Assembly: GCF_000013665.1 (NCBI RefSeq) | Contig: NC_007912.1 | Location: 3,961,501-4,025,500, forward strand | Length of the DNA: 64,000 nt | From: Saccharophagus degradans 2-40 | GTDB taxonomy: Bacteria > Pseudomonadota > Gammaproteobacteria > Pseudomonadales > Cellvibrionaceae | Reading direction: 5' to 3' | Shown here: positions 1,864-49,565 of the stretch, in pieces | How positions within the stretch are numbered: position 1 is the first letter of the stretch | Layout of the letters: every line of letters begins with the position of its first letter | The notes under the pieces: generated by a model | Told to the model about the DNA's origin: nothing | What the model saw: the letters and a program-made list of their open reading frames with translations, nothing else | The model's database searches: none | Program-made: the position numbers and the translations under genes

Positions 1864-2910
1864 TTATTTCAACGCGTGCTTAATTATATTTGCAGCTACT
1901 TTGTTTAACGGAAGCACTTCTGCTGCCGCATCCAATTTCACTGCAGCGCCGGGCATCCCCCAAACAATAGAGGTGGCTTCATCCTGCGCAATTGTGTGAC
2001 TACCGGCATCACGCATCCGCTTCAGTGCTTCAGCTCCGTCGGCACCCATACCAGTTAAAATGACGCCCATGGCTTTGTTGCCCACCTGCTCGCATACTGA
2101 ATCGAACAATACCTCTACCGATGGCCTATGACGATTTACCATTTCGCCGGAATCCAACAAGCAAATATAGCCCTTAGCAGTTTTGCTTACTTTAAGGTGG
2201 GCATCGCCAGGGGCAATATACACACAGCCTTTTTCTATAGGCTGCTGGTGTTGCGCTTCGTATACTTTTACCGCACTAGCACCATCTAAGCGTTTTGCGA
2301 ACGATGTGCTAAATGCAGGTGGAATATGCTGGGTAACAACAATAGGCGGACTGTTTAAAGGCAGACTAGATACAACCGCTTTAATAGCTTCAGTGCCACC
2401 AGTAGACGCACCTATGGCACACAAAAAGCCTGTTTTAAGCGACTTGGACTGAGCCACAGCATCCAACCCTGTAGCTTTAGCTTTGCCTACCCCTTCCATA
2501 GCCGTTACATTTGCGCCCGCCGCACAGATAAGTTTGCGAATAATCTCGTCGCGGTACTGGCTTAAACCTAAATCGGAATGCTGCTTGGGCTTGCCGATAA
2601 AGTCCACGGCACCCAAGCTTAACGCTTCGAGTGTTTCTGGCGCCCCTACTTGAGTGAGAGTAGAAATCATTACCACTGGTAATGGGTGCAAACGCATTAG
2701 GTTTTTAAGAAAAGAAATACCGTTCATGCGCGGCATTTCTATATCCAGTGTTAGCACATGGGGGTTAAGTTGTTTGATCATTTCGCGCGCTTGATAAGGG
2801 TCTTCTGCCGCGCCACACACTTCTAGCCGCGGGTCGCTGGTAATCATTTCGCGCAGTAATGAACGGATGAGAGCGGAGTCGTCAATTATTAGTACTTTTA
2901 TAGGTTTCAT
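1864..2910 (-). CDS. cheB: CheB: chemoreceptor glutamate methylesterase/deamidase
   Basis: 348 residues, the usual CheB length. The N-terminal receiver domain (about 1-120) begins VLIIDDSALIR, has the phospho-acceptor Asp56 in LTLDIEMPRMNG, and a Lys in GKPK. The C-terminal methylesterase (about 155-348) shows the catalytic Ser in GASTGGTEAI, the His in VTQHIPPAF and the Asp in GMGADGAEALK. CheB removes receptor methyl groups when phosphorylated by CheA, opposing CheR. It is the last gene of the minus-strand che cluster, starting 11 bp after cheD, which points to co-transcription. All catalytic residues are present. Confidence 0.96.
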   Translation of the reverse strand: MKPIKVLIIDDSALIRSLLREMITSDPRLEVCGAAEDPYQAREMIKQLNPHVLTLDIEMPRMNGISFLKNLMRLHPLPVVMISTLTQVGAPETLEALSLGAVDFIGKPKQHSDLGLSQYRDEIIRKLICAAGANVTAMEGVGKAKATGLDAVAQSKSLKTGFLCAIGASTGGTEAIKAVVSSLPLNSPPIVVTQHIPPAFSTSFAKRLDGASAVKVYEAQHQQPIEKGCVYIAPGDAHLKVSKTAKGYICLLDSGEMVNRHRPSVEVLFDSVCEQVGNKAMGVILTGMGADGAEALKRMRDAGSHTIAQDEATSIVWGMPGAAVKLDAAAEVLPLNKVAANIIKHALK

Positions 2911-2921
2911 CTTGGCTCCTG

Positions 2922-3578
2922 CTAAAACAGTTCTACATCGCCCGCACTGGGCTTAGTGGCCAAAGAATCCAAGTAAGCTTTTTCTTGTTTAACCAAGTTA
3001 GTATCTGATGCAATACCCATTTTTTTCATTTTGGCTTGCCCTGTTGCGGCAAAATAAAGAATTTTTCTTGGGTAGTTACCGCCTAAATCTTTTGCAATAA
3101 CAGGCAGTTCATCATTAGCTAAAAAGCTTTCTACAAATTCTATATTGCGCTGGCCTATATCCATGCGCACCATATTTGCCAGCACCCGCCCGCCGCCGAA
3201 TAATTTGATCTCCAGCCTATTGCGCATACCGCCGCATTTAATAATGCTATTTATTAAGTGCTCCATCGCCCAGTTGCCGTAACACAGCTCGGGGTTACTC
3301 AAGCTATTGCGAGTGATTTCATGCCCTGCGGCTTGTTCGGGTAACATAAAATGGTTCATACCTCCTACACCGGCAACTGGGTCGCGGATACACGCAGCGA
3401 TACACGACCCCAGCACAGTCACTAACATTTCGTCGTTTTTAGTTACATAGCATTCGCCAGGCTGTAATTTTACGGCCACCTTAGCGAAACGAGCATCCCA
3501 GTAGCGGTATACATTGGTAAACCCTGGTAGCGCAGGCTTTAAACGAGCATCTGCTTTACTTGTTAATCCCTTTAACAT
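2922..3578 (-). CDS. cheD: CheD: chemoreceptor glutamine deamidase
   Basis: 218 residues. The core motif GSCIAACIRDPVAGVGGMNH carries the catalytic Cys and His of the CheD family, and FGGG follows in LFGGGRVLANM. CheD deamidates specific receptor glutamines to glutamate so that they become methylation sites; in some bacteria it also acts with CheC, which is not seen here. The gene starts 2 bp after the cheR stop, so the two are probably translationally coupled. About 40 N-terminal residues precede the conserved core, longer than in compact homologues. Confidence 0.95.
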   Translation of the reverse strand: MLKGLTSKADARLKPALPGFTNVYRYWDARFAKVAVKLQPGECYVTKNDEMLVTVLGSCIAACIRDPVAGVGGMNHFMLPEQAAGHEITRNSLSNPELCYGNWAMEHLINSIIKCGGMRNRLEIKLFGGGRVLANMVRMDIGQRNIEFVESFLANDELPVIAKDLGGNYPRKILYFAATGQAKMKKMGIASDTNLVKQEKAYLDSLATKPSAGDVELF

Positions 3579-3580
3579 TT

Positions 3581-4438
3581 TCAGTACGCTTTTTGATAAA
3601 TAGTACGGCCCATACTGTTAAATCTATCGGTAACCTTATAGAGGTTTTCCGAATGGCCAATAAACAGGTGGCCATTATCAACGAGCATATCCGCGTAACG
3701 GTTGAAGAGTTTTTTCTGGGTTGGCAAATCGAAATAAATCACCACGTTCCGACAGAATATAATGTCGAAAGAACCGCGCATTGGCCATTCGTGTAATAAG
3801 TTGAGCTGACGAAATCGAATTAATTCGCGCACGCTGTCTTTTATTTGAACGTTATTGGAAGTTTTATCCCTTTTAAAAAACTGCCGGTATTTATCCGGTA
3901 CGCCCTCGGCTCTATCAATGGGGTAAACCGCGCCCGCGCCTTTGGCAACCACATTGGAGTCAAGATCGGTGGCTAGAATTTTCACATCCCAACCCTTTAG
4001 GGCCGAGAAGCTTTTAAAAACCATGGCTATTGAATATGGCTCTTCGCCTGTAGAGCAACCTGCAGACCAAATTCTAATTTTACGACTCGCTGCATTAGCC
4101 CGCATTAAATTTGGAATAACAGTACGTGCCAAATATTCAAAGTGGTGTATTTCGCGAAAAAAAGCCGTAAGGTTTGTAGTAATTGAATTGATAAACTCCG
4201 TTTTTTCGGCCGCGGGCGATGCTTCCAACAAGTTACAATACTGATTAAAATCAGATAACCCAAGCGCGCGTAACCGGCGCGACAAACGACCATAGATCAT
4301 ATTGCGCTTATGATCGGAAAGACTAATGCCTGTCCACTCCATTGCAATACGTTTTATTATTTCGAAATTGGCAATAGACATAGGAAACTCACGCGCTTCG
4401 TGATCCCCAACTACTGCTGTTCGACTTGGGTTAACCAT
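3581..4438 (-). CDS. cheR: CheR: chemoreceptor glutamate methyltransferase
   Basis: The N-terminal helical domain shows GISLSDHKRNMIYGRLSRRL. The SAM-binding domain shows RIWSAGCSTGEEPYSIAM, ILATDLDSNVV and FDIIFCRNVVIYFD, all diagnostic of CheR. It methylates receptor glutamates using S-adenosylmethionine. The open frame extends to 4495, but the extra 19 residues look non-coding. Starts at 4438 (MVNPSR) or 4381 (MSIANFE) are both plausible, and none has a clear ribosome binding site, so the start is uncertain. The neighbouring receptor ends in a CheR-docking type pentapeptide. Confidence 0.94.
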   Translation of the reverse strand: MVNPSRTAVVGDHEAREFPMSIANFEIIKRIAMEWTGISLSDHKRNMIYGRLSRRLRALGLSDFNQYCNLLEASPAAEKTEFINSITTNLTAFFREIHHFEYLARTVIPNLMRANAASRKIRIWSAGCSTGEEPYSIAMVFKSFSALKGWDVKILATDLDSNVVAKGAGAVYPIDRAEGVPDKYRQFFKRDKTSNNVQIKDSVRELIRFRQLNLLHEWPMRGSFDIIFCRNVVIYFDLPTQKKLFNRYADMLVDNGHLFIGHSENLYKVTDRFNSMGRTIYQKAY

Positions 4439-4511
4439 GCTATAAAACCGAGTATTTATACAAACAAAGAGGCGATGAGTTGCATCGCCACACACATTTA
4501 AGCGTTAAACG

Positions 4512-6815
4512 TTAAAAGTCTTCCCAGTCGTCATCTGAAACGCTGGGTGCGCTAGAGGCGCGAGTAGAAACGCTCTTTTTCGCTGGGCGAGCACTAGCAC
4601 TAACGACCATGTGTTGTTGATTTTGCGATATAGTGAAAAACGACACCTCTTCCATTAGCCGCGCTGCTTGCTCTGCCATGGCCTCACCTGCGGCCGATGC
4701 TTCCTCTACGAGTGCTGCGTTCTGTTGCGTCATTTCATCCATTTGCGAAATTGCAGTGTTTACTTGCTCAATACCCGAGGTTTGCTCGGTTGCGCCATTG
4801 CTTATTTCCTGCATCATATTACTTACGGTTTCTACCGACGACACCAGCTCTTCTAGGGTTTCACCAGAGCGATTGACCAGCACTGTGCCATCCTCCACCT
4901 TAGAAACACTATCGCGAATAAGCTCTTTAATTTCTTTCGCCGCAGCGGCTGAGCGCTGAGCAAGGTTTCGTACTTCACCTGCCACTACCGCAAAACCTCG
5001 CCCTTGTTCACCTGCGCGCGCGGCTTCTACTGCGGCGTTAAGGGCGAGCAAGTTAGTTTGGAAGGCGATTTCGTCGATTACGCCGATAATGTCGTTAATT
5101 TTTTTACTGGATTCGCTTATTGCACCCATTGCCTCAACAGCTTTAGAGACTACCTGACCACCTTCACCTGCTTTTTTCTGAGCAGACATAGCTAGGGTAT
5201 TAGCCTGTTGTGCGTTTTCGGCGCTTTGCCTTACGGTAGAGGTCATTTCTTCCATACTAGAGGCGGTTTCTTCTAGTGAAGAAGCTTGCTCTTCTGTGCG
5301 CTGACTTAAATCGGCGTTGCCCTGTGCAATTTCATTAGCCGCTGTGCTTATTGCATTTGAGGCAGTTCGAATTTTGCCAATAATATCGGTAAGTTTTTCG
5401 ATGGTACCGTTGGCGTTTTCTTTTAATTCGCCAAAAGATCCGTCGTAATTGCGGGTAATACGCTCTGTTAACACGCCACGCGCCATAGAGCCAAGCACAC
5501 GCGAAATATCATTCAGCGCCACTTCAACTGTAGTGACCAAATCATTCAGGCCTTTCGCTAACCCTAAGAAGAAACCGTTCTTGCCATCCAGTGAAATTTG
5601 TTTAGTAAAATCACCCTGAGACGCGGCCGCCACCATTTCGTCTATTTCTTTCTCTATTGCCACTTCAGCGGTGCGATCGGCCCATTCCACAACAGCGCCA
5701 ATTTTCTTTCCATCTACAAAAATGGGGTTTGCAATAACAGTGAATGATCTACCGCCCACCTTTGCACCGCCGTTATACGTGCTGGTGAGGTTATTCAATA
5801 GATTGCGTTGATGCGCAGGGTTTTTATGGAATACATCCATATTGGTTCCCACCAATGTGCGGCTATCAAAATTGGGGAGGTCGCGTTTAATATCCGATTC
5901 TGCATTTTTGAACATGCCGTTTACAGATTCGTTCATATATAAAATATTGCCTTCAGGGTCGGCAATCATGACATTTGCGGTGACGCTATCTAGCGCGTAG
6001 CGTACACGTGCATTCTCTGCCGCTATCGCCGCCAATTCGTTTTGTTTTTTCACTTCTTCGGTTTTATCAAGCCACTCTACAAGTGTGCCTAACCGCTCAC
6101 CATTGCTATTAAACCAGGGCGTGGCAATCAAGCCGAACACCATATCGCCTATGTTTAATGTTGTTTTGTAGGGTGTTTTAAGTTCTCTTAGCAGATTGCG
6201 TTGATGCTCTGGGCTTTTATGAAAAGTATCAACGTTGGTGCCAATTAAATCTTTTACTTTGAAGCTAGGCAGGTGTTGCTGCAATTCCTTTTCGCGCTCT
6301 TGTAGCATTTCTACTACTGTATCGTTCATATAAACAATATTCAGTTCATTATCGGCAAGCATCACATTTGCCTGACACAATTTAAGTGCGCTAGCCTGAT
6401 TGGACTCTCGGCGAACTTCAGTAATATCCGTCGCGAATTTTATTACGCGATATACTGAGCCATCCTCGTCGAGGAGAGGGCTATAAGTCGCATGTAGCAA
6501 AACAGATTCACCATTGCTTGTAACCCGCTCTATTTCGCCCGACAGACTTTCGCCACGGCGTAAATTACTCCAAAAATTCTTGTAATCGTTGCTATTTCTA
6601 TATTCATCTGTAACGAATATTGAATGGTGCTTACCTTGAATTTCATTTAAGCTGTAGCCCATCGCATTTAAAAACAGATCGTTTGCGGTTTCTACAACAC
6701 CTTCTGGCGTAAATTCAATTACGGCCAAAGCACTTCTTGCCGCATTTACTTTATCTTCTAACTCTTTTTCCTGCCGGCTGTGACCACCGCCAAACAACTC
6801 AAACAATTTTTTCAT
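4512..6815 (-). CDS. Soluble PAS-domain chemoreceptor, Aer2-like
   Basis: 767 residues with no transmembrane segment, so a cytoplasmic receptor is predicted. In order: an Aer-type PAS (about 25-135); two related PAS domains (about 140-255 and 265-385) with the pattern GTNxDxFHKxPxHQ; HAMP-like repeats (about 385-480); and a methyl-accepting signalling hairpin (about 490-740) with its tip at [20 protein letters not shown]. His199 and His330 in FHK precede Trp248 and Trp378 in VEW by 49 and 48 residues. This matches, from memory, the haem-ligand His and the Trp of Aer2 haem-PAS domains, so oxygen or redox sensing is inferred. The protein ends in DWEDF, matching the xWxxF pentapeptide that tethers CheR. 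It sits between cheW and cheR in the operon. Confidence 0.93.
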
Positions 6816-6859
6816 ATCTTTTACCCGTCCCTATTTCACAAATTCTGTTAATACGTTGA

Positions 6860-7423
6860 TTAAACTTGCACCTGGTCTTTCAGGGTAGAAAGATCTGGCA
6901 TACCGTCGAGTTTTAGCAAGCGATCCATATCGAGTAGAATCACCATTTTGTTGTCTATATTTGCTAGCCCTCGAATAAACTCAGTAGCAACAGAATCACC
7001 TAGGTCGGGGGCGGGCTTCATATCGCGAGGGTTAAGGGTATATACATCGCTAACTGCATCCACAACTATGCCAACCGTACGGCTGCCTTGTGCAGTTTTT
7101 ACTTTTAAAACAATTACTACTGTAATCGGCGAGTAATCCACAACCTCCAGACTAAAACACGTACGCAAATCGATAACAGGCACGATGGTGCCACGCAAAT
7201 TAATTACCCCTTTTATATGATCGGGCGCGTTAGGCAGTGGCGTGGCCGACTCCCAACCGCGAATTTCTTGAACGCAAAGAATATCCACGCCGTATTCTTC
7301 CTCTGCCACAATAAAGGTTAAGTATTGATCGGTTACGCTAGAATCCAAACCGCCATCCATAGCGGTATTATTAGTTCCCGTAGATGACCGATCAAGATTG
7401 TCAGTTTTTTCCATCGGTTCCAT
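6860..7423 (-). CDS. cheW: CheW: receptor-kinase coupling protein
   Basis: 187 residues. A poorly conserved leader of about 30 residues precedes a CheW domain with YLTFIVAEEEYGVDILCVQE, PNAPDHIKGVINLRGTIVPV and DLRTCF, then GIVVDAVSDVYTL. CheW links chemoreceptors to the CheW-like domain of CheA. It lies 16 bp after the cheA stop, in the same transcription direction, and is followed by the PAS receptor. Assignment is secure. Confidence 0.95.
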   Translation of the reverse strand: MEPMEKTDNLDRSSTGTNNTAMDGGLDSSVTDQYLTFIVAEEEYGVDILCVQEIRGWESATPLPNAPDHIKGVINLRGTIVPVIDLRTCFSLEVVDYSPITVVIVLKVKTAQGSRTVGIVVDAVSDVYTLNPRDMKPAPDLGDSVATEFIRGLANIDNKMVILLDMDRLLKLDGMPDLSTLKDQVQV

Positions 7424-7439
7424 TACTTACCACCTCGTA

Positions 7440-9860
7440 TTAATTTAGCGTTTTTGTACTGCGCATAACCTGATAGCCATCGACACGCGTACTGGTATTT
7501 TGCGCAACCACTAGCTTTTGAGAAAACAGGTCGACAATACTTTGCACATCTAAAATAAGCGCCACCGTACCGTCACCCAATATTGTTGCGCCAGAAACAC
7601 CTTCAACCTGTTTGTAATTTTGCTCTAAGCTTTTTATTACCACCTGTTGCTGGCCTAATAACTCGTCAACAATTACCCCAACCTTCTGACCATCGAATTC
7701 CACCACTACCATCAGTGCGCCTTCAATCGAATCGGTATCAGAAGGAATAGAAAAGGTTTTACTTAACTCGATAATGGGAACATATTCATCGCGCAAGCGA
7801 AAAACCTGTTGCCCGCCAGCTAGCTGGTTTACGTATTCGCTGCGACACTGCATAGATTCCACAATAGAAATAAGCGGGAAAATATAAATATTGCCGCCAA
7901 CGCGAATTAACTGACCATCGAGAATAGCAAGGGTAAGTGGCAAACGAATTGTGATAGTAGAACCTTCACCTAGCTTAGACGCTATATCGACAGCGCCATT
8001 TAAAGCTTGAATATTACGCTTAACCACATCCATACCTACACCGCGACCAGATACATCCGTAACCGCTGCGGCAGTAGAAAAGCCTGGCTGAAATATAAGA
8101 TCGTAAACTTGCTCGTCAGTCATCATTGCTGCATCACTAGCACTTATTATTTTTTTGTCTATCGCTTTTTGCAAAACCTTATCGCGATTCAAACCAGCGC
8201 CGTCGTCTTTTATTTCAATAACGATATTGCCGCCTTTATGGTAGGCATCAAGCGTAATGGTGCCCACTTCTGGTTTGCCTGCGGCTAGCCGCGCTGCGGG
8301 CAGTTCTATACCGTGATCCACAGCATTGCGCACTAGGTGAACCAGTGGGTCACCAATTTTTTCCATAACTGTTTTGTCTAGCTCTGTATTTTCGCCGTGT
8401 ATTACCAGCTCGACTTGCTTCTCTAAACGCTGGCTTAAATCACGCACCAAACGTGGAAAGCGATTAAAAGAAAAGCTAATAGGCAGCATGCGTATACGCA
8501 TTACGCCTTCTTGTAATTCTCGGGTGTTTTGCTCTAGTTGGTTTAAGCCCTCAACAAGCCGGGGCACTTTAGCAACATCTACATCTTCACTTAATTGCCC
8601 CAACATAGACTGCGTAATAACAAGCTCGCCCACCATATTGATAAGGTTGTCGATTTTATCTATTCCAACACGAATAAATGTCGCATCCGTACTTGCTTTG
8701 TTGGCAGGCTTGGCTTTGCTCGCTTTAACTGGTTCCTTTTGTTCAACTACCGAAACCGGCGCTAAAATAGGTGTTAATTTCGCCTCATTAGAATTAACCG
8801 CCTCGGCTTCTGTTTGCCCATCTTCTCGTGGTGCAGCAACAAGGGCCGATATCGTTAACTGGCTTTCATCGGCCACCCATTCGAAAGCGGTTTCTATTTC
8901 GGTTACTTCGGTGTTAGCTTCTAGCTTAATATCCCAACCTAAATAACAACTTTCTGGCTCAAAATCGGCAAAATCTGGCAGCCCTTTAGTGTCGGCTTTA
9001 CTATGATATGTACTGCTTAAATTCTTTAGCTCTGCGAGAATACGCAACGGGTCGTTACCTGTACGCATAACATCGATACTGGGTACGAAATGTATTTTCC
9101 AGCAATGGTTATTTTCATGTTGATCAATGGCCAAAGGTTGGCAATCACCCGATCGTGTAATCGAAATATCTGCCAAATCGGTCACCCATTCAAATACTTC
9201 CTCTAGCGCATTTTTTTCTATCGATGCGGGCACGCTGGCACGCCAAGATAGGTAACATTGCTCTGGGTCGAAACCGCCCCACTCAGGTAGCGCGTCGCTA
9301 TTAGCAACTAACTGCAGCGCACCTGTGTTACGCAATTCCCGCAAAATACGCGCAGGGTCATTACCGGTTTGCATAATTTCAAGGCTAGGTTGAAATGTTA
9401 TTAGCCACGGGGCATCGGCATCGCTATTTACAGTGGGTGCAGCCTCAGTTTTTTGTGCGGGCGCAGGCCCTTCGTTAGCGAGAATAGCTTCAAACTGACG
9501 TTGCAACGTAGCCGCCTGCTCTGTTTTTTCTAATTCGCCACTTTGCGCAAGGGCTAACATTTCGCGCAAACAGTCCACCGATTCCAATAAAAGATTAACG
9601 TGCGTCAGCACTAAACTGCGCTGGCCAGAACGCACTTGATCTAACAGTGTTTCTAATACGTGCGTGAAATCGCAAATGGCGTTAAAGCTAAATGTGGCAC
9701 TACCGCCCTTTATCGAGTGCGCGCAGCGAAAAATGGCGTTAATGGTTTCGTCATCAACATCAGTGGGATCTAGCTCCATAAGCGCAGACTCCATAATATC
9801 CAAGCCTTCTACGCTTTCTTCGAAAAAGACTTGATGAAACTGCGACAAATCTATGCTCAT
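7440..9860 (-). CDS. cheA: CheA: chemotaxis histidine kinase with tandem P2-like repeats
   Basis: 806 residues, longer than enteric CheA (about 650). The N-terminal Hpt domain carries phospho-acceptor His48 in FRCAHSIKGGS. Two homologous 83-84 residue units follow, at about 152-234 and 254-337, each containing TGNDPxRILxELxN and CYLxW; they occupy the place of the regulator-binding P2 region. After a Glu/Pro/Ala-rich linker come the dimerisation helices (IDKIDNLINMVGELVITQS), the ATPase domain (PLVHLVRNAVDHGIE, GRGVGMDVVK) and a C-terminal CheW-like domain. The kinase autophosphorylates and passes phosphate to the CheY-like protein and CheB encoded beside it. It begins just after the receiver gene. 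Confidence 0.96.
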   Translation of the reverse strand: MSIDLSQFHQVFFEESVEGLDIMESALMELDPTDVDDETINAIFRCAHSIKGGSATFSFNAICDFTHVLETLLDQVRSGQRSLVLTHVNLLLESVDCLREMLALAQSGELEKTEQAATLQRQFEAILANEGPAPAQKTEAAPTVNSDADAPWLITFQPSLEIMQTGNDPARILRELRNTGALQLVANSDALPEWGGFDPEQCYLSWRASVPASIEKNALEEVFEWVTDLADISITRSGDCQPLAIDQHENNHCWKIHFVPSIDVMRTGNDPLRILAELKNLSSTYHSKADTKGLPDFADFEPESCYLGWDIKLEANTEVTEIETAFEWVADESQLTISALVAAPREDGQTEAEAVNSNEAKLTPILAPVSVVEQKEPVKASKAKPANKASTDATFIRVGIDKIDNLINMVGELVITQSMLGQLSEDVDVAKVPRLVEGLNQLEQNTRELQEGVMRIRMLPISFSFNRFPRLVRDLSQRLEKQVELVIHGENTELDKTVMEKIGDPLVHLVRNAVDHGIELPAARLAAGKPEVGTITLDAYHKGGNIVIEIKDDGAGLNRDKVLQKAIDKKIISASDAAMMTDEQVYDLIFQPGFSTAAAVTDVSGRGVGMDVVKRNIQALNGAVDIASKLGEGSTITIRLPLTLAILDGQLIRVGGNIYIFPLISIVESMQCRSEYVNQLAGGQQVFRLRDEYVPIIELSKTFSIPSDTDSIEGALMVVVEFDGQKVGVIVDELLGQQQVVIKSLEQNYKQVEGVSGATILGDGTVALILDVQSIVDLFSQKLVVAQNTSTRVDGYQVMRSTKTLN

Positions 9861-9869
9861 GACATTTAC

Positions 9870-10232
9870 TCAAAGGACTTTGTTAACGGTGGCAATTAGT
9901 TGATCTGGACTAAAGGGTTTTACTATCCAACCCGTTGCCCCTGCGTTCTTACCCTCTGCTTTTTTGTCAGAGCCAGATTCTGTAGTAAGCATTAAAATGG
10001 GCGTGAATTTAAAGGTAGGTAGCGTGCGCAATTCTTTTACAAGGCTAATGCCGTCCATTTTGGGCATATTTACATCGGATAAAACCAAATCAAAACTGCC
10101 GCCCGCCTTAGCCAGTGCTAACGCATCGGCACCGTCGGGCGCTTCGGTAACTTGGTGGCCAGCCCCCGCCAACGTAAACGACACCATTTGTCGCATAGAT
10201 GCAGAGTCATCGACTATTAATATCTTCGCCAT
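9870..10232 (-). CDS. CheY-like single-domain response regulator
   Basis: 120 residues, a lone receiver domain. The acidic pocket is ILIVDDSASMRQMVS, the phospho-acceptor is Asp53 in VLSDVNMPKMDG, a Thr lies in MLTTES and a Lys in GWIVKPFSP. All signalling residues are present. It is probably a target of the adjacent CheA. Whether it binds a flagellar switch or another output cannot be told from sequence; no cheZ-type phosphatase gene is visible in the window. It lies between the STAS gene and cheA with gaps of about 10 bp. Confidence 0.93.
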   Translation of the reverse strand: MAKILIVDDSASMRQMVSFTLAGAGHQVTEAPDGADALALAKAGGSFDLVLSDVNMPKMDGISLVKELRTLPTFKFTPILMLTTESGSDKKAEGKNAGATGWIVKPFSPDQLIATVNKVL

Positions 10233-10242
10233 TAAGCTTCTC

Positions 10243-10545
10243 CTAATTCACAGTGTTATCTAATGCTAGCTCTGCAGCCAAGCCGAGAATATTGGCGCTG
10301 TCGATTAGTTCTGCCGACGGGTTACGCCACTGAACGGGTTTATGAAATTTCGTTGCAGTACGATAGAAACTAAGTAACAGTTGTAAACCCGCAGCATCTA
10401 TTTTCACCACATCCGTTGCATCTAATACGATATTTTCGACATCATTATTTTCTAATAAGCCGTTTAACTGCTCGTATACCTGTTGGGCCTGAGCGATGGT
10501 AAAACGCTCTGGAACTTCGAACACCGTTAGTTGCGACACACGCAC
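10243..10545 (-). CDS. STAS-domain protein of the che operon
   Basis: 100 residues forming one STAS domain: FTIAQAQQVYEQLNGLL, then IVLDATDVVKIDAAGLQLLL. STAS proteins are usually switched by phosphorylation of Ser or Thr in a D-S/T-S/A-G motif. Here the motif reads DAAG, so the usual site is missing and phospho-control by a serine kinase is unlikely. It is the first gene of the tightly packed che run. Genes of this type often open chemosensory operons of this arrangement, but their role is not settled. A ligand-binding or scaffolding role is only a guess. Confidence 0.85.
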   Translation of the reverse strand: MRVSQLTVFEVPERFTIAQAQQVYEQLNGLLENNDVENIVLDATDVVKIDAAGLQLLLSFYRTATKFHKPVQWRNPSAELIDSANILGLAAELALDNTVN

Positions 10546-10811: not shown

Positions 10812-12011
10812 TTAAAAGAGCTCCACTAGGTTGTTGTCGACTTTTGCGCCAGAATCGCCTTCTGAACTCAGCGATGTGGCATCGGTTTCTACCGCAGCCA
10901 AAGCAGCCCCCAAAGATAATTCCAACTTATTTACATACTCATCCACCTTTAAACCTTCGTTAAAAATGCGATTCGTTTCGTAAACACTGTTGTTAGTTAC
11001 CTCCTCTAAGAAAACTTCATCTTCTTCTGTAAGAGCCAATGCAGGAATACGATATTGAATTTTCTCTGCGGTATGCTCAACCGTGGTTGCAATATTTTTC
11101 ATTACGTTCTGATAAGACGACTTGATAACATGCATAACATTTTGCACATCGCTCGATAACTTTCTTAAAGTTTCCTTTTCTTTTTCAAGCTCGTAGCGGT
11201 CTTCTATCGCTATCACTCTGGCATTTAACCCTTGTATAAGCGCAAAGGTATTGTCTTTTATGGTTCCGTATTTCTCTGCATCGTCGACTGGCATGTTTTT
11301 GATAAGCATGGAAACACGATCAAAATTGATAATGGTACGGCGGCCAAAATCTATATACCTGCCTTTATCTTTAAGTTCGGTAAGAAGCTGAGATTCCAAA
11401 TCTTTCGCCATACCGGTTGGTTCCATATTTTTTATGCCCATAAGGCTTCGCATTTGCACACTACATTTAAGCCCATACCGCTCTAAGCTGTTAAAAAACT
11501 GTTGCCCCAATTCATCTAGGTTATCGCAGCTGTGCAAAGCCAATAGAAACTGCACATTTGCACCTAGGTCACTGTTATCTACTAATGCGGTGCGGGCCGT
11601 AGCCGTTGCTGCATCTAAACGGCTACTTAGCTGACGCATAGCAATTTGGTGAAATGTTGCTTTTCGACACCGCGCTACTGCTTCATCAAGCTCTACATCG
11701 CTTTCTATTAGGTCGTCGTAGCCCATATCGTACATAGCTAGCTTGTCGGCCATACTCGCAGGGTTAGCCAAAATAATTGCAGGCACACTTAATTCGTCTG
11801 GCGAGGGAAGTACGTCGCGTATTCTCTGAATAGACACATCCCCGCCGCCGAGCATATCAACCACTATCAAGCTGTAATCGCCCTGAGAGACAGCGAGCTG
11901 CAACGCATTGGCAGTAGAAATTGGCGTAGAATCAAAGGCTTGCGCAAGAGCCTCCCCCAAAGTAGAAAGATGCTCTGCAAACAGTATTATTTTGCTACCA
12001 GACAATAGCAC
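10812..12011 (-). CDS. Pseudo-receiver protein with an uncharacterised module and coiled coil
   Basis: 399 residues. The first 120 fold like a receiver domain: IILFAEHL replaces the acidic VDDS pocket, Asp52 is kept in LIVVDMLGG, and the usual Thr and Lys are lost (ILANP, LIES). Phosphorylation is therefore doubtful. Residues 146-267 (NSDLGANVQFL to GLNARV) form a module of unknown function that recurs in the histidine kinase at 48396-49565. A predicted helical, coiled-coil stretch follows (about 268-370), then an acidic tail. It lies upstream of the che operon in the same direction, separated by 266 bp. Function is unknown; a signalling adaptor role is inferred from context. Confidence 0.8.
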   Translation of the reverse strand: MLLSGSKIILFAEHLSTLGEALAQAFDSTPISTANALQLAVSQGDYSLIVVDMLGGGDVSIQRIRDVLPSPDELSVPAIILANPASMADKLAMYDMGYDDLIESDVELDEAVARCRKATFHQIAMRQLSSRLDAATATARTALVDNSDLGANVQFLLALHSCDNLDELGQQFFNSLERYGLKCSVQMRSLMGIKNMEPTGMAKDLESQLLTELKDKGRYIDFGRRTIINFDRVSMLIKNMPVDDAEKYGTIKDNTFALIQGLNARVIAIEDRYELEKEKETLRKLSSDVQNVMHVIKSSYQNVMKNIATTVEHTAEKIQYRIPALALTEEDEVFLEEVTNNSVYETNRIFNEGLKVDEYVNKLELSLGAALAAVETDATSLSSEGDSGAKVDNNLVELF

Positions 12012-12349: not shown

Positions 12350-13543
12350 ATGGCATCTGCTTGGCCAATTCAGTTAATAATAGCGATTTCTGTTAGTGCA
12401 TTATCTTTGGTTTGTAGCATCGCGCTTTGGACACCTATCGCGTTATTTACCTGTTTAGCAATAGCCGTAATTATTGATATAGCCTGTTTAGTATCGCTGT
12501 GCGCTCACTTTACAAACAACCGCCAGCAGGCCGAACATCAAGAAAATTCCCACGCGATTAACCACTTAAACTCTTTACAAAGAAAGGTGAGCGACGTAAC
12601 CGATACCCCCTGTGAAGAGATAGTCGCCATAAGTAATAAAGTGCGTAACTTAGCAGAGGAAAGTAGCCTCGCCTTGCATAAAAGCTTTACTGTACTTATG
12701 GAAAATACACAGCGCGAACAAGAACTACTGGAATCGATTACCAAAGACTTAACCCGCAGAGAACACCAAGAAAAAGCGGATGGCACGCAAGACGTATCCC
12801 TCCACCAATTTGCAAAAGAAGTGGGCGATATACTTGACGTTTATGTCGGGCTGTTTGTTAACGTGAGTGACAAAAGCATACAAGCAGTGCACAAAATTCA
12901 AGACATGCTTAAAGAACTCGACGATATGTTCAAGCTAATTAGCGAAATTCGAGGCCTGGCAGAGCAAACCAATTTACTCGCTTTGAATGCTGCCATTGAA
13001 GCAGCGCGTGCTGGCGAGGCAGGCAGAGGCTTTGCAGTGGTAGCAGACGAAGTTCGCAAACTATCGCAAAGCTCTGGTGCGCTTAACGATGAGATACGGG
13101 TTAAAGCAGAGGCAACTAAATCTACCGTTGCCGATGTAGAAAAGGTGGTAGGCGAAATAGCAAGCTTGGATATGAATATCGCAATCAACGCCAAAGGCCA
13201 CCTTGAAGGTATGCTTGCAGAGCTTGAAAGAGTTAACGATCGGGTTACCCACACCGCCCGCCAAGGCAGCGAAATAAGCGCGCTTATAAACAAAGAGGTG
13301 ATGCGATCTATGACGGCATTGCAGGGCGCCGATAGAATTTCACAGTATTCGGATAACCTTTCAAACAACGTATTATCTTTGCGCAATCATCTACACAACG
13401 CATTCACACTTAATCAAGCTGTCACCAGTGTAGAGCAAGGCCTTGCAGAAATAATAAATAATATAGAAAAAACTTCGCTGCAAACCTCTATTGTAATCAG
13501 CGATGAAGATGACCAAGCAGGAGGAGAAATAGTGCTTTACTAG
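12350..13543 (+). CDS. Short membrane-anchored methyl-accepting chemotaxis protein
   Basis: 397 residues. Two hydrophobic helices sit at about 5-28 and 30-52 with almost no loop between them, so there is no periplasmic sensor. The cytoplasmic part has the conserved hairpin tip [32 protein letters not shown] followed by [10 protein letters not shown]. No HAMP or PAS domain is evident, so the stimulus is either intracellular or perceived through the membrane or a partner. The gene is divergent from the che cluster. The downstream half of the hairpin is less typical than in standard receptors, and there is no C-terminal xWxxF pentapeptide. Confidence 0.9.
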
Positions 13544-48395: not shown

Positions 48396-49565
48396 ATGGA
48401 CGCCGCAACCGAAGTCGAAAGCCTGCGCCAAGAGCTAGCCTCACTGCGTCAACTTACCATGACGGTGATGACCAGTAATGGAGATATGGGCGTAGTGGTG
48501 CAGTTTTTAAAAAACAGTTTTGCCATACCCAGCTATCAAGCGCTGGGCGAAGCCTTGATTGAGTCACTTGGCCAGCTAGGCCTTAAGGGTGCAGTTACAT
48601 TAGAAACCTATACCGGTCGCATATTTATCGGCCCTGAAGGCTCGCTCGATATAGAAGCTGCCAGCGCAATTAAAGCCGACCTTTTAACCGGAAGAATTGT
48701 AGAGCGCGACGGCGTACTACAAATCAATTACGACAGCGCCTCGCTGCGGGTAACAGAGCTGCCGGATAACGAGGAGCGAATAGGCCAATTGCGCGACTCT
48801 TTGGCGCTTCTAATGGAAGGCGCCGAAGCGCGAGTTAAATCGCTTATTATGGAAGAAAAGGCCACCGAGGCACGCAAATCAAAAGACGAGTTTTTTGCGC
48901 TTATGTCCCACGAGTTGCGCACACCACTCAACCCAATTATTGGCTACGCGACGCGACTGGAAAAGAAACTAGGCAGCGAACTAGACGAACAGTACCGTAC
49001 GGTAATTCGCTCTATTAAATCCAATGGTGAAAGCTTATTGCGACTCATCAATCATATTATAGATTTAGGTAAGCTCGAAGCAGGGGAAATAGCCGTAAAT
49101 AGGCGCCAATTTAATGTAGCCGATGCGATAACTTATTCTGCAATTAAAGCAGAGGAATTTATTGATTCAGATAAAACCAAAATTGTTAAGCACGTGGACC
49201 CCAATTTATATTTTGTAGCTGATCCGCCCCGTTTTATTGATATTGTAATTAGCTTGTTAGCTTACTCGGCGCAGGCATCAGACAACCACACTATTTCCAT
49301 TAGCGTGAGCATGTCTCAACTAGATGGTGTAGATAATTTAATTTTGGAAGTACAAGACGATGGCCAAGCCTTTAGTGAGGCCTATAAAACAAAAGTATTT
49401 GAAAACTTTGCCAACAGAGAAAACACAGACATGTACAAATCTAACGACCTTGGCATTGGCTTGTACTTAACTAAAAAGCTAGTAGAGCTGCACGGCGGCA
49501 ATATATCGCTGCATAATAAAATGGAAGCTGGCAATGTATTTAGAATGAGCTTACCTAGCTTTTAA
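48396..49565 (+). CDS. Histidine kinase with an uncharacterised N-terminal module
   Basis: 389 residues, no membrane segment. A short coiled coil (1-25) precedes a module of unknown function at 28-148 (NGDMGVVVQFL to GAEARV), matching residues 146-267 of the pseudo-receiver protein at 10812-12011. HisKA has His172 in FALMSHELRTPLNPIIGYA; the ATPase domain has LEVQDDGQAFSE and DLGIGLYLTKKL, with an N-box poorer than usual. Autophosphorylation is likely but the partner is unknown. It sits between bioD and the bioH-bioC fusion on the opposite strand, and nothing suggests a biotin-related role. Confidence 0.88.
   Translation: MDAATEVESLRQELASLRQLTMTVMTSNGDMGVVVQFLKNSFAIPSYQALGEALIESLGQLGLKGAVTLETYTGRIFIGPEGSLDIEAASAIKADLLTGRIVERDGVLQINYDSASLRVTELPDNEERIGQLRDSLALLMEGAEARVKSLIMEEKATEARKSKDEFFALMSHELRTPLNPIIGYATRLEKKLGSELDEQYRTVIRSIKSNGESLLRLINHIIDLGKLEAGEIAVNRRQFNVADAITYSAIKAEEFIDSDKTKIVKHVDPNLYFVADPPRFIDIVISLLAYSAQASDNHTISISVSMSQLDGVDNLILEVQDDGQAFSEAYKTKVFENFANRENTDMYKSNDLGIGLYLTKKLVELHGGNISLHNKMEAGNVFRMSLPSF

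Follow-up and report, generated by a model that had tools for sequence, protein, structure and literature searches.

A predicted GAF-fold module shared by a degenerate-receiver protein beside an F7-like chemosensory cluster and a kinase-like protein of Saccharophagus degradans 2-40

Gammaproteobacterial chemosensory systems of the F7 type are encoded in the order STAS-cheY-cheA-cheW-receptor-cheR-cheD-cheB, and the receptor ends in an aromatic pentapeptide tail; the stage-1 order comprises a second cheW gene and additional genes beyond cheB (PMC7184735, in the part of that paper available to us). The same part describes the P. aeruginosa receptor McpA, in which valine occupies the second position of the pentapeptide. 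This tail, the role of which is unclear, is highly conserved in McpA-like sequences, and its valine keeps McpA from interacting with any of the four CheR homologues. The genome paper of S. degradans 2-40, of which excerpts were available, reports 5.06 Mb on one replicon and four CheA proteins, and it ascribes the pathway of one of them, Sde_3107, to motility based on type IV pili or to other functions (PMC2386152).

The window analysed here, a 64,000-nucleotide stretch of the S. degradans genome, contains a cluster whose gene order, compared from position 1864 upward, is close to that of the stage-1 F7 systems in the available part of PMC7184735 (Table 1). As in the F7 system, the STAS gene is followed by cheY, cheA, cheW, a receptor gene, cheR, cheD and cheB, and the receptor has an aromatic pentapeptide tail. 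The cluster differs from the published system in having one cheW instead of two and in being preceded by the gene of a pseudo-receiver-GAF protein, P0001, at a distance of 266 bases from the STAS gene that heads the cluster. The label F7-like rests on gene order and not on the phylogenetic class of CheA or the receptors. By its estimated position, Sde_3107 is probably the CheA of this cluster. The central module of P0001 recurs at the N-terminus of P0002, a kinase-like protein encoded elsewhere in the window.

Table 1. Features of the window discussed in the text (positions in the window)
Feature	Position	Strand	Remarks
F7-like cluster: STAS, CheY, CheA, CheW, PAS-MCP ending WEDF, CheR, CheD, CheB	1864..10545	-	downstream of P0001
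VELF tail of CheD	2925..2936	-	
P0001, 399 aa: pseudo-receiver / GAF-fold module / helical hairpin / C-terminal tail	10812..12011	-	
VELF tail of P0001, residues 396-399	10815..10826	-	in a stretch with pLDDT under 50
P0001 residues 276-383: rest of helix 245-324 and helix 329-383	10863..11186	-	predicted long hairpin
Shared module of P0001, residues 144-279	11175..11582	-	GAF fold predicted; 4g3k_B Z 13.0
Degenerate receiver of P0001, residues ~1-125	11637..12011	-	Asp52 kept; Ala12-Glu13 replace acidic pair; Ala82, Ser104
MCP-like protein, divergent neighbour of P0001	12350..13543	+	ends EIVLY
P0002, 389 aa: GAF-fold module, then HisKA and HATPase_c	48396..49565	+	both Pfam domains match
Shared module of P0002, residues 26-158	48471..48869	+	GAF fold predicted; 4g3k_B Z 13.5; pLDDT 88.1
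Histidine kinase core of P0002	48876..49556	+	HELRTP intact; N-box Asn to Tyr; DDGQAF for DTGIGI

P0001 and P0002 carry a homologous module, as their sequences indicate. In a single BLASTP comparison residues 141-287 of P0001 and 23-171 of P0002 were 29% identical (E 6e-13), which bears out the shared module described in an earlier note on this DNA. The offsets given there were also correct (118 at N-x-D-x-G, 119 at G..ARV), but its wording "nearly without gaps" was overstated, since the alignment contains 14 gap positions in 155 columns. Some of the E-values of P0002 in the profile searches of the class and of the relatives are circular because P0002 is a row of the profile. The clean test is a profile that leaves out P0002, combined with a shuffle control: P0002 reached 92.4 bits, against 4.8 for the highest-scoring of 2000 shuffled N-termini, and chance similarity was rejected. 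When the whole genome was searched with P0001, P0002 was matched at 1.8e-10 and the subsequent matches fell to 0.033, 0.155 and 0.236, the one at 0.033 covering residues 27-136, the receiver part. The earlier note had raised the possibility of further copies among the signalling proteins of the genome; a profile search found two places at E 0.001 or better, with P0002 itself a row of the profile.

No family that names the module was found in Pfam and NCBIfam. A Pfam search with 30 module sequences returned just eight stray one-member matches and no GAF family at E up to 0.1, and hhalign of the module with 30 PF01590 stretches of relatives gave a probability of 1.0% (0.4% with a 13-row subset). 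A sequence search for a relative of known structure yielded none, the best E being 0.71. Cyclic-nucleotide-binding GAF domains are marked by an NKFDE-type motif, the N-K pair of which is absent from both modules, as read by eye.

The fold was recognised in the predicted structures. The AlphaFold2 model of P0001 (32 alignment rows, pLDDT 83.5) shows the receiver, a GAF-like domain at about residues 144-279, two helices (245-324, 329-383) and a tail of low confidence, in this order; with an overall pTM of 0.49 the packing of the domains is uncertain, and the module itself has a pLDDT of 79-94 by ten-residue block. The model of the P0002 N-terminus (21 rows, pLDDT 88.1) has the same order of elements as the P0001 module, and the two models are not independent, the 21 rows including one kinase, which is P0002 itself. 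The best GAF chain for both predicted modules is 4g3k_B, the GAF domain of Nlh1, on which both superpose (P0001: Z 13.0, 126 aligned residues, rmsd 2.6; P0002: Z 13.5, 124 aligned residues, rmsd 2.4). Among the structure matches of P0001, 4g3k_B ranks 14, with receivers ahead. The VIA list of P0002 consists mostly of GAF domains, GAF-bearing phytochromes and phosphodiesterases, and LuxR-type domains, and its top Foldseek matches were the LuxR-type 5l10 and a phytochrome (E 1.4e-4 to 9e-4; best, 5l10_A with E 1.4e-4 and TM 0.55). PAS folds are absent among the structure matches listed, which does not exclude PAS. A new fold was considered and rejected, both predicted models being GAF.

Judged by these models, the module very probably has a GAF fold in both proteins. 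It represents a divergent GAF-fold family, real and widespread, that has no name at the sequence level. The statement in the earlier note that the module belongs to no named family thus holds for the sequence (Pfam, NCBIfam, profiles) but not for the predicted fold, and the GAF assignment that the note expected from a profile search, should it prove wrong, came instead through the predicted fold, the profiles showing none. A role in stimulus binding or dimerisation would fit the predicted GAF fold flanked by long helices.

Where the family most commonly has D-D, D, S and K, the receiver of P0001 has Ala12-Glu13, Asp52, Ala82 and Ser104, so that of the response-regulator signature (acidic pair, Asp, Ser/Thr, Lys) the Asp alone is present. 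Pfam Response_reg does not match P0001, and the NCBIfam matches are weak and far under the cut-off. The term pseudo-receiver, introduced in the earlier note, suits P0001 but not its family, in which the phospho-acceptor Asp is retained by 97 of the 112 non-kinase members aligned (14 of the 126 non-kinase members were dropped from this alignment by length), and Response_reg matches 28 of the 32 rows of the family alignment, from which L055 and L065 of the 32 related-locus matches were left out. In the C-terminal region of P0001 the conserved columns L325, L327, Q/D331, E332 and L367 lie near the turn of the hairpin. Homology of this hairpin to the dimerisation hairpin of kinases was considered and rejected, as hhalign found nothing (probability 0.1%).

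For P0002, the designation as a kinase has to be qualified: HisKA and HATPase_c match and the H box is intact, but the ATP site is degraded, in that Tyr replaces the N-box Asn, and the G1 box is changed. In EnvZ, loss of the N-box Asn abolishes the kinase but not the phosphatase activity. The ATP site of the orthologue L248 is altered in the same way as that of P0002, the orthologue L097 retains the N-box Asn and has lost the G1 Asp, and the ATP site of the relative L250 is intact. These motifs make it fairly likely that P0002 is not an ordinary kinase. Close relatives of P0002, with 42-46% identity, occur in just three other genomes (G541, G018, G432) of the 144 of the family.

Profile searches of 369 genomes drawn from the class and of 97 genomes of relatives found the module in 25 and 40, respectively, the latter set having up to 11 matches in a single genome. 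The 132 distinct module ORFs, fragments included, comprise 126 non-kinases, mostly receiver-GAF-helix proteins, and six GAF-kinases; L248 and L250 are two further GAF-kinases, eight in all. In L098, L099 and L176 a receiver-GAF gene lies directly upstream of a GAF-kinase gene on the same strand, separated, counted from the first start codons, by a 24-base gap, a 4-base overlap and a 4-base gap, respectively. The first ~135 residues of these three GAF-kinases may resemble a degenerate receiver; the receiver profile detected no receiver in them. Several family members adjoin ordinary kinases, hybrid kinases or che genes, the latter being cheR-cheD-cheB in L039, cheY-stas-cheA in L041 and cheY-cheD in L062. 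Two members of 659 and 658 aa (L026, 1432-3411; L189, 2621-4597) have an N-terminal extension of about 275 residues ahead of the receiver and end in VELF. More distant module matches occur in proteins of 507-724 aa in L177, L178, L179 and L180, in which no receiver was detected.

P0001 and the CheD of the cluster share the C-terminal tail VELF. The strict codon pattern of the tail has 21 matches in the genome, of which 15 end in a stop codon; frames of >75 codons are closed by just two of the 15, P0001 and CheD. The pattern was picked after these two had been seen, and the reversed pattern has 37 matches, more than the 21 of the pattern itself; support therefore comes only from the identity of the ORFs that the tail ends. 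Among 19 P0001 orthologues, P0001 included, 18 end in [VI][DEV]L[FY] and one in VEMF. The 29 complete CheD proteins of relatives and of S. degradans itself end exactly in [VI][DE]LF in 20 cases and with one or two extra residues in five; one has ITLFD and three have no tail (9 of 39 matches had no locus and were left out, and one CheD was cut by the locus end). The complete relatives of the MCP-like neighbour, one more being cut by the locus end, have [VI][DE]L[FY] in 14 of 17 cases, once with an extra residue, and the variants IALF, TELF and ISLF in the other three; the copy in the window has IVLY. The tails of CheD, P0001 and, at 13529-13540 and in variant form, the MCP-like protein are all situated around one chemosensory cluster.

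Within the module family a [VIL][EDV][LIV][FY]-type tail is present in 37 of the 112 non-kinase members and lacking in 75; two of the eight GAF-kinases have it (VELF in L176, VVLF in L100) and six do not, and P0002 likewise has none. Outside the family the tail ends 3 of 1144 complete ORFs of at least 90 aa in the loci read, a set that includes loci fetched with the tail pattern as well as spurious ORFs, and two of the three are CheD. Tailed CheD proteins also occur in genomes without the module (G003, G016, G017, G019, G030), hence the tail does not need P0001. In L186 a 176-aa protein (4570-5100, minus strand), the gene of which is close to one receiver-GAF gene and two genes for a receiver alone, ends in SIELF. 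The tail was also considered as a CheR-tethering pentapeptide, x-[HFYW]-x-x-[HFYW], and rejected as such, since the first aromatic position is occupied by Val in both P0001 and CheD. The valine-type tail of McpA, known here from its description, may be the same tail as that of CheD and P0001.

We propose that the module acts as the dimeric sensory core in a family of gammaproteobacterial signalling proteins. The GAF domain would bind a small ligand or a partner, and its long C-terminal helix would relay the resulting change, in proteins of the P0002 type to the kinase core and in those of the P0001 type to the helical hairpin. P0001 would most likely serve as a phosphorylation-independent accessory of the adjacent F7-like chemosensory system, to which it may dock by its -VELF tail, as found on CheD and, as a variant, on the receptor-like neighbour. 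Because its ATP site is degraded, P0002 would more likely act as a phosphatase or phosphotransfer partner than as an active kinase. We regard the proposal as a whole as reasonably probable, and likewise the link of P0001 to the chemosensory system. The assignment of the Sde_3107 pathway to pili or other functions, in the excerpts of PMC2386152, counts against it.

The place of P0001 beside the cluster could be accidental, as the flanks of its orthologues (L006-L014, L035-L037), read over 1.5-4 kb, contain no che gene. P0001 would then be a free-standing receiver-GAF regulator, unrelated to the chemosensory cluster, whose tail has another role; the family members beside ordinary or hybrid kinases are in line with this. 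We nevertheless consider it unlikely, because the tail is common to CheD and the relatives of the MCP-like neighbour and rare elsewhere in the ORFs read, because members in three loci adjoin che genes, and because CheD occurs in 9 of 10 family genomes with a P0001 orthologue and in 12 of 27 that lack one (Fisher one-sided p 0.015, which ignores kinship and genome size). A function within the chemosensory system could also be that of a CheZ-like regulator that binds CheY through hairpin and tail. CheZ has a similar arrangement of long hairpin, linker and short C-terminal motif, and P0001 combines a long helical hairpin with a low-confidence linker and a short hydrophobic-acidic motif at its C-terminus; Pfam, however, gives no CheZ match at E up to 1 and the conserved C-terminal columns show no recognised CheZ-type pair, so that this reading appears very improbable.

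Another alternative concerns the relation of the two proteins to each other. P0001 and P0002 might be direct partners that form a GAF heterodimer in which the pseudo-receiver protein controls the kinase-like protein, a remnant of adjacent gene pairs such as those in L098, L099 and L176. G018 and G432 each have a P0001 orthologue together with a close P0002 relative. Yet the two genes are ~36 kb apart, the P0002 relatives are confined to three other genomes of 144, whereas 10 of the 37 family genomes in a different sample have a P0001 orthologue, and P0002 has T-E at the K-N of the family's LIKNMP strand. We regard direct partnership as unlikely. Tentatively, the reading of P0001 as an accessory of the chemosensory system can be extended: a docking code x-[VI]-[DE]-L-[FY], separate from the CheR pentapeptide, might bring together at a single putative hub of the F7 system such unrelated proteins as CheD, McpA-like receptors, receiver-GAF proteins and a number of GAF-kinases, with the GAF family feeding a second sensory input into the system through it.

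Among the papers listed by our literature searches we recognised no account of the module family and no paper on a CheD tail; prior publication of either is possible. The present analysis defines a domain family for more than 100 signalling proteins (132 distinct members) that have none in Pfam. By placing an McpA-like tail on CheD and an accessory regulator, it makes the search for binding partners directly testable. The presence of a valine-type tail on CheD and P0001, too, has no counterpart in the part of PMC7184735 available to us.

The fold of the P0002 model resembles that of solved GAF domains, namely those of Nlh1 (4g3k), NifA (8jrc), a P. syringae kinase (3cit) and KdpD (4y2f), over 123-134 residues with Z 12.2-13.5, and flanking helices are common to the predicted module and these sensor domains. 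No sequence similarity of the module to the Pfam GAF models or the 30 PF01590 stretches was found, however, and it has a conserved stretch of its own, R-T-x-x-N-x-x-x-S-x-L-I-K-N-M-P. Most non-kinase members resemble REC-GAF response regulators in that a receiver is followed by a GAF fold; they differ in having long helices and, in many cases, a tail at the C-terminus, and P0001 differs in addition in its degenerate receiver. In this last respect P0001 resembles the aspartate-less receivers (PMC4395418, in the part available), from which it is distinguished by having retained the Asp and not the acidic pair and the Lys.
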